64,000 bases of DNA from Candidatus Vallotia laricis (GTDB lineage Bacteria > Pseudomonadota > Gammaproteobacteria > Burkholderiales > Burkholderiaceae). The notes under the pieces are model-generated. The model searched no databases, had not been told where the DNA came from, and saw only the letters and a list, made by a program, of their open reading frames with translations. Where the stretch lies: positions 806,001 through 870,000 of the forward strand of contig NZ_CP047399.1 in the NCBI RefSeq assembly GCF_020541325.1, written 5' to 3'. Made by a program: the position numbers and the translations under genes. Below, piece by piece: positions 35,714-41,147 of the stretch (the stretch's first letter is position 1; each line of letters opens with the position of its first letter).

Positions 35714-35980
35714 ATGAAAGGAAATCTCGTTATTATTTGCCGCGACCAAGATGCCCATGAATTCGACACGCTAATGAGCGAATATGGCGTTTTCCAGACT
35801 AGGTTATCGTCAACCGCATGGTATCTAAAGTTTGATGATTTACCCGAGGTAATCCAGGAGGAGATCCTAGAACGACTAGGTAAATATACTACGCACTATA
35901 TCTTTGAAGCTAATAGCGTGACATACAATACGATCGATAGCGAAGCTGCTGCCGCATTAAATACACTATTTGGCGATTAA
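35714..35980 (+). CDS. Small conserved-looking protein of unknown function
   Basis: An 88-residue acidic protein, MKGNLVIICRDQDAHEFDTL at the start and ALNTLFGD at the end. It has no signal peptide, membrane segment or metal motif. Predicted alternation of strands and helices (GNLVIICRD; WYLKFDDLPEVIQEEILERL; HYIFEANSVTYNTID) suggests a small alpha/beta fold. The frame has clean codon use for its length and stands alone between two long non-coding stretches, which argues that selection keeps it. I do not recognise the family. The Shine-Dalgarno site is weak (AAGGCGC before ATG). Confidence 0.7.
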   Translation: MKGNLVIICRDQDAHEFDTLMSEYGVFQTRLSSTAWYLKFDDLPEVIQEEILERLGKYTTHYIFEANSVTYNTIDSEAAAALNTLFGD

Positions 35981-36075: not shown

Positions 36076-36143
36076 ATTCCAGTAATCGTCATCCAGTATT
36101 TAACAATTAGGAAGGTCTTTAACTGATTGACGATTACTGGAAT
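36076..36143. repeat. 16-bp perfect inverted repeat, 36-nt spacer
   Basis: Arms 36076-36091 (ATTCCAGTAATCGTCA) and 36128-36143 are exact reverse complements. It lies about 95 bp downstream of the 88-aa gene. The long loop and absent T-run argue against an intrinsic terminator. Confidence 0.85.
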
Positions 36144-36294: not shown

Positions 36295-36341
36295 AGTTCT
36301 CAGTTGAATTTTCTAGATTCTAGAAAATTCAACTGAGAACT
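36295..36341. repeat. Perfect 23-bp inverted repeat, 1-nt spacer
   Basis: Left arm 36295-36317 (AGTTCTCAGTTG...) and right arm 36319-36341 are exact complements around a single T. A modest T-rich stretch (TTTGTATTTG, partly in the arm end) follows on the plus side, so it could also act as a weak terminator for the 88-aa gene, but it is unusually long and loopless for that. Confidence 0.9.
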
Positions 36342-36545
36342 TTTGTATTTGCTAATAGCCTTAGAAAGGCTTGTTTTAGTTTGTTGATACAGACTGAATA
36401 CACTCCTTAGATGTATACTTGCATAGTTCTCGCTTAGATCATTTATTCTTTGCCCATCTAAGTTGTTATGCATAACATATTAACTATATTTATATAGTTA
36501 ATAAACGCCGAAGACCTGTACTATAACAGAGCAAAAATGAATTAG

Positions 36546-36635
36546 CGCTGTAATGCAATGGCATATTGCAATGTTGATCTAATGCATCATAATACTTAAG
36601 ATTATGCGGCGGCTTATACTTTTTAGCTTGGGATA
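36546..36635 (-). pseudogene. Possible remnant of the HexR/RpiR regulator domain of Glk
   Basis: One minus-strand frame reads KLKSISRRIILSIMMH, then a stop, then INIAI. I align this loosely with the C-terminal end of the regulator domain fused to Burkholderia Glk (QLSMISR-ILHLLMID-ILAVGV, from memory). It lies about 190 bp beyond the glk stop in the right orientation. The alignment is short and made by eye, so this is only a suggestion. Confidence 0.3.
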
Positions 36636-36820
36636 GTAAAGCTTACCTATTTGTAATCTAACTTCTAGCCCAAAAAACTATTAAGAAAGCCGGCCTATAC
36701 CAGGTTTCTTAAATAGTTAGCAGTCTCTGATGACTACACGCGAGTCGGCTAACAATATCAGACCATCATATTGGAAATGATGTATCGATAACTCTAAGAT
36801 CAGATAATTATGCGAACTGG

Positions 36821-37903
36821 CTATGGGCTATCGGCTGGCATAAAAACGTCTCGCATCTGCCAGACGCGCTCAAATACCGCCGACTCTCTGTTAGATCGAT
36901 GCCAAAGTTGTTCAGCTAGAATCGCAGACACGCCCAGGAACGCTGGATATTTCGCAGTGATTACGAAGGTTGGAATATTCGCTAGATATGCCCTGGAACG
37001 GCCTTTCTCTTGGAAGCGTGTACGAAACGGAGAAGCAGAAAATAACTCTCCCAGATGAGAGATCACACCTCCGCCGATATAAATTCCACCAAGAGCACCA
37101 AGCGTAACTGCAATATTTCCAGTAAATGTGCCAAGAACTGCGCAGAAACACTCTACTGCTTCCAGAGCGAGCGGATCGGCCGCCTGCGCACGCCTCACTA
37201 CATCAGCTGGCTCGAGTTTAGGGTTAAGAGGCTTTTTACTATAGACAGCCAGTGCCCGATATATTAGCGCTAGTCCCGGTCCCGCGCAGATGCGCTCGAA
37301 GGACACATGCGTCCATTGCTTGCGCGCATAATTTAGTATTCGATCTTCACGCTCATCCTGCGGCGAAAACGTAGCATGTCCACCCTCACTGCCCAGTGCA
37401 ATCCAACGATCGTTTGATGGAATTAGACCTGACACACCTAAACCAGTACCCGGTCCAACCAGTCCGATTACACTATTCTGTCGACGCACACCACCTCCAA
37501 TCTGTGCGCGCTGTGCATCAAATAAGCACGGCAAAGCCATTGCTAAAGCAGTAAAGTCGTTAACTACTAATAGTGTATCGAATCCTAATGCGCAGCGTGT
37601 AGCCTCAATTGAAAAACTCCAGTTGCGATTAGTCATCTGTACCTGATCACCGTCTACAGGATTGGCGATTGCAATAGCCGCATGGTTCACGCGAATAATC
37701 TTATTATCCTCTAAAAATCTTTTAATCGCAGAGGCAATACCAGGATAGTCTGCACAAGGGTATACACGTACATTGTCAATCTGACCAGGTCTAAATTCCA
37801 GCGCAAAACGCGCATTGGTTCCGCCTACGTCGGCAAGCAGCCGTGGCCCATCCGGATGTGGACTCTCACGCGCAAACATTGCTTTAGGCGCACCAGTAAG
37901 CAT
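36821..37903 (-). CDS. glk: Glucokinase (truncated from the Glk-HexR fusion)
   Basis: Phosphorylates glucose with ATP to glucose 6-phosphate, feeding zwf and pgl in the same cluster. The ROK-like/Glk core is complete: [15 protein letters not shown] (phosphate 1), [26 protein letters not shown] and [11 protein letters not shown], and [19 protein letters not shown]. In Burkholderia the protein is bifunctional (~640 aa), with an RpiR/HexR-type DNA-binding and sugar-isomerase-fold regulator following QMRDALTPAER. Here the chain ends [12 protein letters not shown] at 360 aa, exactly at that junction. The start at 37903 overlaps the pgl 3' end by 20 nt, as in the compact Burkholderia operon; an upstream extension is possible but unlike the family. 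Confidence 0.93.
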
Positions 37904-38570
37904 CGACGTTGACTCCCATATCGTTGGCCAGTTTGGAGATGGCATTATGTTGTAATTGCTCAATCGCAGCATGTAGAACGTCTAGCTTTGACTGCCCGGA
38001 GATTAACAGAAAGAGACGCTTAATTTGCTTAAGTGCCGATAATGAAAAGCTGACCCGTAGATGTAGCGCCTGTCGTGGCTGGACTAGAATATAACGATCG
38101 TGAGTGAGTATTGCTAAATCCCACTGCGGCGAGTCAGCGAAAATCGACGCAATATGACCGTCTTTGCCCATACCCAGAACGGCTACATCAGGAAGCATGC
38201 GTGAGACATTCATATTTAGAGCTTCGATGTGGGCATTAGGGGGCTGATTGATGTCGACTAACGGCTGGAACATCGCCTCGCGCGCTGCATGCTGCAGCAA
38301 TGTATCTTGGACGAATCTCGCATTACTATCTGGGTGTATAAGGGGAACCCAACGGTCATCGACCAGGGTGATATTAATGCGCGCCCAGTCAAGCAAGCGC
38401 TGTGATAAAGCTTGCAAGAATGGGCGTGGGCTCGTGCCACCCGACACCGCGAGTGTGACACGCGCCGGGTCTATACGATTGGCTAGCGACGACTGTAACG
38501 CATCGCTAACCGCTTGCACTAGCGCGGCCCGCTGGGCGTACTCATTGTCAAAAGCGTGAAGCCCGATCAC
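37884..38570 (-). CDS. pgl: 6-phosphogluconolactonase
   Basis: Hydrolyses 6-phosphogluconolactone to 6-phosphogluconate, second step of the oxidative pentose phosphate route. The 228-residue protein shows [16 protein letters not shown] (sugar-phosphate binding, residues ~40-55), [21 protein letters not shown] and [18 protein letters not shown], the family signatures. It lies between zwf (52 nt upstream) and glk (overlapping downstream), forming a three-gene operon. Confidence 0.95.
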
Positions 38571-38622: not shown

Positions 38623-40080
38623 TTAGTTCTCTTCTTCTAGCCAGCATGTACCATGCTGAGCTAGAAGAGCGCTAGCTGCAGCTGGTCCCCATGTTCCTGC
38701 TGCATACCGCTTAGGCACAGTACCGAGTCGAGTCCATTCTGTTAGAATTGGCTCAACCCACCTCCACGCTGCCTCTTGCTCGTCTCGATGCACAAATAAT
38801 GCTAATCGGCCATTGATAACATCTAATAGTAAGCGCTGGTATGCTTCCATACGTTCTTCTTTGAAGAACTTATCAAAAGCTAGATCCAAGTGCACACTTT
38901 GTAAGTTCATCCCTTCACCGGGCTGTTTGGCGAGGCCATATAGCCGAATTGATTCGTTAGGCTGAAGACGAATCACTAAACGATTAGAGCTATTTCGTAG
39001 TGCCATAGAATCAAAAACTGAATGCGGAACTGCTCGGAAGTTAACAACAATCTCCGCAACTCGATCAGCAAGTCGCTTGCCGGTCCGCAGAAAAAATGGC
39101 ACTCCAGCCCAGCGCCAGTTTTCGATCTCGACTTTTAGGGCAACAAAGGTTTCGGTCGTGCTAGACGCGCTCACGCCCTGCTCCGTTATATAAGCAGGCA
39201 CCGCAACACCTTTGAGCACGCCTGTATGATATTGACCGCGTACAGCAACGCGACTAACAGCACCAGGCTCAATAGGTTTGAGGGCGCGTAGCACGCGCAG
39301 TTTTTCATCGCGTAACGAGTCAGTATGCATTGAGTGGGGCGGCTCCATTGCTACGATAGACAGCAGCTGCAGTAGATGGTTTTGCACCATGTCTCGTAAT
39401 GCGCCAGTGCTATCGTAGAAATCACCTCGTCCTTCGACTCCCAATTCTTCTGCAATCGTAATTTGAATACTCTCGACCCACTCGCGGCGCCATAGTGGCT
39501 CAAGGAGTGTATTGCCAAAACGCAGAGCTAGTAGATTCTGAACGGGTTCCTTGCCTAGGTAATGATCTATCCGGTAAATATGGCTTTCTACGAAAATTTC
39601 ACCGACTGCGTTATTGATCGCTTTAGACGACTGCAGGTCATAACCAAGAGGCTTCTCTAACACGATTCGTGCACCATCACTTAAGCCTATAATTGATAGT
39701 GCACGACAAATTGGCACGAATAGAGATGGCCTGGTAGCAAGATAGAATACCCGAATACCGGACAGCTGCGAAATCGCATCTCGCAATAACGCATAATCTT
39801 CCGGCTGCCCGAGATCAACCCGCACAAACAAAATTCGATTGAGAAAGTCGTTCCACAAAGGATCATCGCCATCCGGCTTTATGTGATTGCGTACATGTGT
39901 ATGCATCCACTGCAAGTACGCTTCTCGATTGCCGAAGCCACGGGCGACCGCAATAATCCGTCCCGCCGCAGGCAGCAAGCCGCCACGGTGCGCCTGGTAC
40001 AACCCCGGCAAAATCTTACGCATTGCCAGATCACCGGTTCCGCCGAAAAGAACAAACGTAAAGCCTGTGTCAACTTGCAT
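38623..40080 (-). CDS. zwf: Glucose-6-phosphate 1-dehydrogenase
   Basis: Oxidises glucose 6-phosphate with NADP to the lactone, supplying NADPH and pentose precursors. The start MQVDTGFTFVLFGGTGDLAM gives 485 aa, normal length, with the dinucleotide motif GGTGDLA at residues ~13-19. The substrate signature RIDHYLGKEPVQNLLALRFG contains the conserved Lys and catalytic His region. An open extension of 19 codons upstream (to 40137) has no family similarity. First gene of zwf-pgl-glk. Its HexR-type repressor appears lost (see glk), so expression may be constitutive. Confidence 0.96.
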   Translation of the reverse strand: MQVDTGFTFVLFGGTGDLAMRKILPGLYQAHRGGLLPAAGRIIAVARGFGNREAYLQWMHTHVRNHIKPDGDDPLWNDFLNRILFVRVDLGQPEDYALLRDAISQLSGIRVFYLATRPSLFVPICRALSIIGLSDGARIVLEKPLGYDLQSSKAINNAVGEIFVESHIYRIDHYLGKEPVQNLLALRFGNTLLEPLWRREWVESIQITIAEELGVEGRGDFYDSTGALRDMVQNHLLQLLSIVAMEPPHSMHTDSLRDEKLRVLRALKPIEPGAVSRVAVRGQYHTGVLKGVAVPAYITEQGVSASSTTETFVALKVEIENWRWAGVPFFLRTGKRLADRVAEIVVNFRAVPHSVFDSMALRNSSNRLVIRLQPNESIRLYGLAKQPGEGMNLQSVHLDLAFDKFFKEERMEAYQRLLLDVINGRLALFVHRDEQEAAWRWVEPILTEWTRLGTVPKRYAAGTWGPAAASALLAQHGTCWLEEEN

Positions 40081-41147
40081 TATGTATTGATGGTGACGTT
40101 GTAAATATAGCTTGGTTTTGTTGCGCACGTGGCACAATTACCCATAGTCTGATAAAAATATTTATGACACTGTGTAGTGTAACTACAATCTAAATAAAGC
40201 GGTACATTTAGTGTGAAGAAAAACTTCTTTATATTAATCAGTTACAGTACAAGCTATCAGCTTCTAACCAGTCGGTAGATGTTCATGATACCCTTTTAAT
40301 AATAGTATGACATATGCCACGCAGAGGGATCTTCATGCTGAAGAAGATGACATATCTATATACCGTTGGAGATTTACGAAATTTACTTATTTTGTGGCTA
40401 CATAACCCCGTAGCCAGGTAATTGATACATCGCCTCTTTATACTTTCTCTAGCGCTCCAAGCCCCGAGGGAATAACAATAAACCTCGTATAATCATCGTT
40501 GCATTGTGTGCTATTGATTTGATATGTAATCTAGCACTATCTAATATAGTTAAAATCCCGTGAATGCCTTGTTAGCACGGCTATCTTTCAACAAAAAATT
40601 AAAGTAGGAAGTGACATACGTTAAAAACGTATAAATCATTAAAAGTGCCTATAGAAAAACTACGCCATAGCAAAGCTAGAAATAGCTGGTAGTAATACTA
40701 TGCTCAATTTCAGGGAAACTTTATTCAGTACCTTTCTTAGGGTACCCTTTTAATAAAGTATTAAAAGACCGCATTAATATCAGATTAGACTAATGCGAGC
40801 ATACTGGGAGCTAACAAGGCCGCTGAAATAGCAATGTTGGGTTGGTTTCGAAATGCTGAGTTAGATTCGGGAGCTTAATTTTGGGTGTCTCCATAAAGGC
40901 GGCTTGGTTGAAGTAATTACGGGCTACTGAACACTATAATATGCATATATATAGTGTTCAGTAGCGGATACTTCCCTAAGAGTATATTTATCTATATTTT
41001 ATAGCCCCGATATATCCCACTTCAACGCGCTTTTCTACGAGAAATTTAATAATGATATGGATGTAGCTTTCTCAGCATATGAAGCTATTTACGTATCTAT
41101 TATTTACGATAATACGCTATAACACTCAACTCCAACTGAACTATGCC
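40081..41147. other. Divergent spacer zwf / ribD
   Basis: About 1.07 kb with no gene recognised. I looked for an FMN riboswitch before ribD and saw none of its conserved blocks. It contains the inverted repeat 40924-40964 and a GGGTACCC palindrome near 40739-40746. Confidence 0.5.
40924..40964. repeat. 15-bp perfect inverted repeat, 11-nt loop
   Basis: Arms 40924-40938 (CTACTGAACACTATA) and 40950-40964 are exact complements flanking an AT-rich loop. It lies about 180 bp upstream of ribD. No T-run follows. Confidence 0.85.

Follow-up and report, generated by a model that had tools for sequence, protein, structure and literature searches.

The glucokinase gene (glk) of Candidatus Vallotia laricis is very probably the surviving kinase half of a bifunctional Glk-HexR gene of the Burkholderia type, and the operator of the lost regulator would persist as a ghost or as part of a promoter. 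The gene lies in the window, a stretch of 64,000 nucleotides on contig 1; the whole genome has 1,125,782 bases (about 1.13 Mb) in two contigs. Vallotia are symbionts of adelgids, and the window genome groups with Mycetohabitans and Ca. Vallotia. The comparisons within this genus group cover eight genomes: four reduced genomes of 1.1–1.2 Mb (V. laricis, G000; Ca. Vallotia sp. ex Adelges kitamiensis, G002; Ca. V. tarda, G003; Ca. V. cooleyia, G005) and four larger genomes of 3.3–3.8 Mb (Mycetohabitans sp. B8, G001; M. endofungorum, G006; G004 and G007, both taken as Mycetohabitans).

The kinase-only glk occupies 36821–37903 on the minus strand and ends with a TAG at 36821–36823. Its start is likely the ATG at 37903, placed by alignment with relatives, which gives a protein of 360 residues and an overlap of 20 nt with pgl; the same overlap is found in the other three reduced genomes and in G007. 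The Glucokinase domain (PF02685, E 1.4e-106) is covered in full by residues 22–331 (36911–37840, minus strand), with a score of 356.5 bits against a cut-off of 22.1, and the invariant glycines and the NDF motif are retained. Solved glucokinases match residues 19–335 (PDB match 1q18, E 1.5e-75), and the model of stand-alone glucokinases (NF001416) gives 387.4 bits against a cut-off of 383. The model of the bifunctional protein (NF010701, 638 positions) covers the window protein at residues 3–358 only, and its 602.5 bits fall below the cut-off of 920. Neither HTH_6 nor SIS has a Pfam match in the window protein. HTH_6 is absent from all four reduced genomes at E 0.001, and from every frame of the V. 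laricis genome up to E 10; the sole SIS protein of that genome is a 610-residue frame with two SIS stretches. A HexR encoded elsewhere in this genome is, thus, ruled out.

The sequence-only reading of this locus, which proposed that Glk had lost a fused HexR regulator, named unfused Glk proteins of the same length in close relatives as the observation that would speak against it; what was found is a fused Glk-HexR of 639 residues in each of the four larger sister genomes. The fusion of G007 comprises Glucokinase (22–331), HTH_6 (344–412) and SIS (464–592), with the HexR model beginning at 343, and the kinase-only frames of the reduced genomes have 360, 360, 359 and 338 residues. In the wider family, from which 299 genomes were drawn, both halves are spanned in all of the best 150 of 293 matching genomes (one match each), a figure that yields no fraction, as genomes without the full fusion rank lower, beyond these 150. 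Single Glk proteins do exist in this wider family (G021, G013, G008, G011 and G009; frames of 353–457 residues, 46–57% identity), and an unfused glk could therefore be ancestral or separately acquired in Vallotia, but this is extremely unlikely: the window Glk has 83–86% identity with the fused kinases of its genus, as expected from common descent, zwf, pgl and glk follow one another in the same order with the same overlap of 20 nt, and the relics of hexR still in place in V. cooleyia and the A. kitamiensis symbiont already refute it. The two upstream genes, on the minus strand like glk, are pgl (37884–38570 in the list of open reading frames), presumably encoding 6-phosphogluconolactonase, and zwf (38623–40080), encoding glucose-6-phosphate dehydrogenase, for which a start at 40080 is suggested by comparison (the listed frame extends to 40137). 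Their order matches the published one, in the part of the source available (PMC12568896).

Descent from a fusion and the absence of the regulator thus hold, but the cut does not lie exactly at the domain boundary, as had been proposed. In the intact fusion of G007, the kinase model reaches residue 331, with HexR starting at 343 and HTH_6 at 344, so that the window frame retains about 15–18 HexR residues; by these profile limits, the cut falls within the start of the HTH domain, beyond the boundary. The in-frame vestige, the start of the HTH, comprises residues 341–358 (36830–36883, minus strand), as delimited by the NF010701 match to 358, by the structure prediction and by the positions that have changed. 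AlphaFold2 gives the window Glk a confident kinase fold (overall mean pLDDT 86.5), with residues 339–360 below 50; the fusion in its intact form is modelled poorly (mean pLDDT 43.7). At positions conserved among the larger genomes (18 in the tail, 283 in the kinase), the tail has changed at 6 of 18 in V. laricis against 25 of 283 for the kinase (p 0.0056) and at 6 against 22 in V. tarda (p 0.0032); the corresponding counts of 4 and 25 in the A. kitamiensis symbiont do not differ significantly (p 0.08). Only in V. cooleyia, where the frame ends at residue 338, does the cut lie near the boundary.

The breakage point in the window can be placed at 36821–36835 (minus strand) by alignment and anchors, and the stop has the same position in the A. 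kitamiensis symbiont. Counted from a conserved alanine codon to this stop, both genomes are one base shorter than the fused relatives, a shortening read by eye where the sequence changes fast, and both frames end alike. An out-of-frame TAG is already present at that position in three of the four fused relatives, G004 being the one without it. The glk of V. tarda ends with another stop codon and another spacing, and in V. cooleyia the linker and first helix are deleted, with likeness to hexR returning three bases past the stop. These alignments show at least two kinds of break in hexR, a one-base shortening (V. laricis and the A. kitamiensis symbiont) and a linker deletion (V. cooleyia).

The DNA behind the stop was compared with hexR in two ways. 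In local alignments of the 900 nt past the stop with hexR of four references (200 shuffles), no shuffle reached the score of the A. kitamiensis symbiont or of V. cooleyia with any reference; 9–30 did so for V. tarda and 123–184 for V. laricis, in which hexR is not detected directly in these 900 nt. In alignments anchored on the left at the break (300 shuffles), likeness to hexR is strong in the A. kitamiensis symbiont (0 of 300 in six of six tests), weak in V. laricis (6–40 of 300) and mixed in the other two, with 98 and 108 shuffles reaching the score at 60 nt, 11 and 20 at 120 nt, and 1 and 1 at 250 nt in V. tarda, and 252 and 107, 0 and 0, and 4 and 0 at the same lengths in V. cooleyia. The V. 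laricis spacer aligns with that of the A. kitamiensis symbiont when anchored (0, 1, 0 and 0 of 300 shuffles at 60, 120, 250 and 350 nt), and also with that of V. tarda (5, 7, 13 and 0); the unanchored alignment with the A. kitamiensis symbiont is not significant (79 of 500 shuffles). Since the V. laricis spacer aligns in anchored form with that of the A. kitamiensis symbiont, and the latter with hexR, it is identified through this relative as a far-decayed, non-coding relic of hexR, at 36500–36820 on the minus strand (far limit approximate).

A possible remnant of the end of the regulator, which had been pointed out at 190–275 bp past the stop, proved no better than chance: when the segment from +150 to +330 was compared with the 3' end of hexR (its final 150 nt and a further 60 nt beyond the gene) in four references, 542, 589, 826 and 854 of 1000 dinucleotide shuffles equalled or beat it. 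This segment overlaps a block common to the A. kitamiensis symbiont, and in neither genome does it match the end of hexR. Of the proposal that the enzyme survives as the regulator decays, the first part stands; in V. laricis the regulator is nearly gone and not visibly decaying, a stage that can be seen in V. cooleyia and the A. kitamiensis symbiont. The common stop position of the latter and V. laricis might suggest that ribosomes still pass the TAG, by readthrough or frameshifting, and complete the full-length protein. This can be given virtually no weight, given that V. laricis has HTH_6 in no frame and no directly detectable hexR past the stop, and that the relics of the A. kitamiensis symbiont and V. 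cooleyia align only with many gaps.

Other features lie near the end of glk. Between glk and a small convergent frame, at 36295–36341, lies a probable terminator, an inverted repeat whose 23-nt arms pair perfectly around a loop of 1 nt, with a T-rich tail on the plus strand. A second pair of repeats, of 22 nt and 91% complementary, is located at 36076–36097 and 36122–36143. The convergent frame itself (35714–35980, plus strand, 88 residues) matches nothing in Pfam up to E 0.1 and no plasmid; its one NCBIfam match, to a cyclic di-AMP receptor, stays below the threshold (E 0.091).

In a tree of the zwf, pgl and kinase proteins, the reduced genomes branch as (G005,(G002,(G000,G003))), with support values of 96/92, 100/100 and 97/95; codon positions 1 and 2 of the same genes give 86/87, 100/100 and 98/98 for these three nodes. 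From this topology and the break shared by V. laricis and the A. kitamiensis symbiont, the one-base break is probably older than the split of these two and V. tarda, with V. tarda having changed later and the break in V. cooleyia being separate. A single loss in the ancestor of Vallotia, in which another part of hexR would have been inactivated earlier and the ends of the frames would have drifted apart later, has about even chances. The four reduced genomes form one clade (96/92 for proteins, 86/87 for codon positions 1 and 2) and none has a detectable HTH_6, both of which fit such a loss; V. cooleyia lacks the one-base shortening, its frame ending through the linker-removing deletion, and its hexR can still be aligned over most of its length, which do not.

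The kinase, as judged from substitution rates, is held by strong purifying selection. Its dN/dS is 0.049 between V. laricis and V. tarda, 0.069 between each of these and the A. kitamiensis symbiont, 0.062 between V. laricis and V. cooleyia, and 0.044–0.081 against G007, ratios that are rough, as dS exceeds 0.8 in kinase pairs. Among the reduced genomes, zwf has values of 0.052–0.076 and pgl of 0.139–0.173, the kinase thus resembling zwf and lying below pgl. The other genes of the pathway are also kept: edd scores above its cut-off and is unbroken in seven of the eight genomes, including all four reduced ones (two frames in G004), and eda is found in all eight, free of inner stops in the reduced four. 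A loss of the effector KDPG through loss of edd or eda is, thus, ruled out. The gene for 6-phosphogluconate dehydrogenase (gnd, PF00393) was found in none of the four reduced genomes and in three of the four larger ones (missing from G001). Phosphofructokinase of the PF00365 type was found in none of the eight, which rules out its being missing from Vallotia alone. With edd and eda intact, and gnd and this phosphofructokinase not found, the Entner-Doudoroff pathway looks like the remaining glucose route, as far as gene content indicates. For V. tarda, the available text of PMC8692619 reports the absence of 6-phosphofructokinase, no recognised sugar transporter and 52 pseudogenes. In so reduced a genome, the kinase could itself have become a pseudogene recently and be about to follow the regulator, but the low dN/dS, the full domain coverage and the retained glycines and NDF motif make this very unlikely.

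Upstream of zwf, at 40173–40187, lies an exact TGTAG-N5-CTACA palindrome, of the right form for an operator of the HexR/RccR type. It is probably the operator of the lost HexR, binding being suggested by co-occurrence with the fusion and by likeness to published sites. The sequence TTGTAGTTAAACTACAA is present upstream of zwf in G004, G006, G017 and G019; G007 is one base off, and in G001 the arms are intact. The core was found in the fetched stretch of all of 17 further fused genomes (16 from the family matches listed, and G031 through a 661-residue frame and a match to residue 358), and in the 15 in which a zwf motif was found it sits 82–533 bp before that motif. It is not upstream of zwf in any of the three single-Glk genomes with zwf in range (G009, G013 and G021), nor was it found in any of 12 regions fetched around single glk genes. 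There are departures from this pattern. In the relative G200 (3.5 Mb, 680 contigs), kinase and HexR occupy separate frames, split near residue 337–338, and the zwf palindrome is absent; in fused Noviherbaspirillum, the exact core is missing at both loci with zwf in range, and a copy with one mismatch lies 77–78 bp before the zwf motif. The co-occurrence of palindrome and fusion could also reflect shared descent alone.

Across whole genomes, the core occurs once each in G004, G006 and G007 and twice in G001 (reversed control pattern, 5–8 times); in the reduced genomes it occurs 2–3 times against 2–5 for the control, and is there no rarer than chance. A match with at most one mismatch turns up somewhere in the window in 19 of 100 shuffles, which is not rare in itself, and the claim rests on place and comparison, not on rarity in the window. 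Of the 17 bases of the palindrome, 15 are kept in V. laricis, 16 in the A. kitamiensis symbiont and 14 in V. tarda, the arms being intact in the first two. The binomial chances of such retention are 0.0002, 0.000015 and 0.0012, respectively (fourfold sites in the same genes are 43–44% identical to G004), in a test that treats sites as independent and does not separate constraint on an operator from constraint on a promoter. In V. cooleyia the site is degraded. The arms of V. tarda are altered in a matching way (TATAG and CTATA), which AT-biased mutation alone could also give. Literature searches aimed at the binding site of the Glk-HexR fusion found no paper on it in the portions of text available, and the palindrome, present in most fused-Glk relatives checked, is a testable operator candidate for a widespread regulator.

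The larger genomes G001 and G004 have a second RpiR-type gene, of 280 residues, divergent from edd, and in G001 TGTAG-N5-CTACA is also present in the gap between the two; only one end of this gene is left in G006 and G007. When the DNA beside edd was compared with both RpiR references (100 shuffles), V. cooleyia was found to have a relic (0 shuffles with each) and V. laricis a short match (0 shuffles); 47 and 43 shuffles reached the score of the A. kitamiensis symbiont, and 3 and 12 that of V. tarda. Read by eye, hexamers of the form TTGAGT-N17-TAAACT (TAGACT in the A. kitamiensis symbiont) precede edd in all four reduced genomes, and the dyad of the edd spacer of G001 and G004 is not kept in them.

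The sequence shows that hexR broke close to where its HTH domain begins, that translation now stops after 360 residues and that the DNA behind the stop has decayed far. The 360-residue kinase would, on sequence grounds, still phosphorylate glucose and feed zwf, pgl, edd and eda. The role of HexR as a repressor of the Entner-Doudoroff pathway comes from other bacteria, according to the available parts of PMC5489143 and PMC5343134; by analogy, without HexR and the second RpiR-type regulator, the genes of the pathway would be free of a repression that KDPG would relieve. The zwf palindrome may persist as a ghost operator or through overlap with promoter sequence. Only a handful of transcriptional regulators are left in Vallotia, according to the available text of PMC8692619. 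It is conceivable, though we lean slightly against it, that HexR was lost repeatedly in Vallotia with the kinase intact each time, that the operator outlives the regulator, and that the palindrome is the Glk-HexR operator across Burkholderia sensu lato. If so, the four genomes would form a small time series of the dismantling of a circuit, regulator first, operator later and enzymes untouched, and the palindrome, both arms of which are kept in V. laricis and the A. kitamiensis symbiont, would serve nobody or have joined a constitutive promoter.

In outline the finding stands, and it is of an ordinary kind, loss of a domain from a bifunctional protein in symbiont genome reduction being already known. 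In obligate insect symbionts, the lengths of orthologs and domains vary more (PMC4007534, available part), and the way in which adelgid symbionts are annotated already makes provision for such a case (PMC8857208, available part). The terms glk, glucokinase and hexR have no occurrences in the Vallotia main texts searched, and no paper joining "Vallotia" and "glucokinase" was found in the literature searched. The locus clearly illustrates how a bifunctional protein is split by function in genome reduction, with the enzyme kept and the switch lost in four related genomes at differing stages of decay, and such genes are awkward to class as intact or as pseudogenes. The added interest lies in the four-genome series and in an operator outlasting its regulator.

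Several known systems are close to the one described here. The bifunctional regulator/glucokinase of Burkholderia sensu lato (NF010701) has the same kinase half, the same zwf-pgl-glk order and the same 20-nt overlap with pgl; the window Glk differs in lacking the HTH and SIS halves, hence the low score with that model. Stand-alone glucokinases (NF001416, PF02685; E. coli-type chains such as 1q18) have the same domain layout, and the window Glk scores above their cut-off, but it is secondarily single, it ends in about 15–18 HexR residues and is most closely related to fused proteins. In Pseudomonas, HexR and RccR are RpiR-type regulators of Entner-Doudoroff genes, and the zwf palindrome is similar to RccR sites such as TGTAGTAAAACTACA (PMC5489143, available part); in contrast to the fusion, these regulators are not joined to glucokinase, and the HexR consensus is TTGT-N7-8-ACAA, the spacing at the zwf site here being N9.
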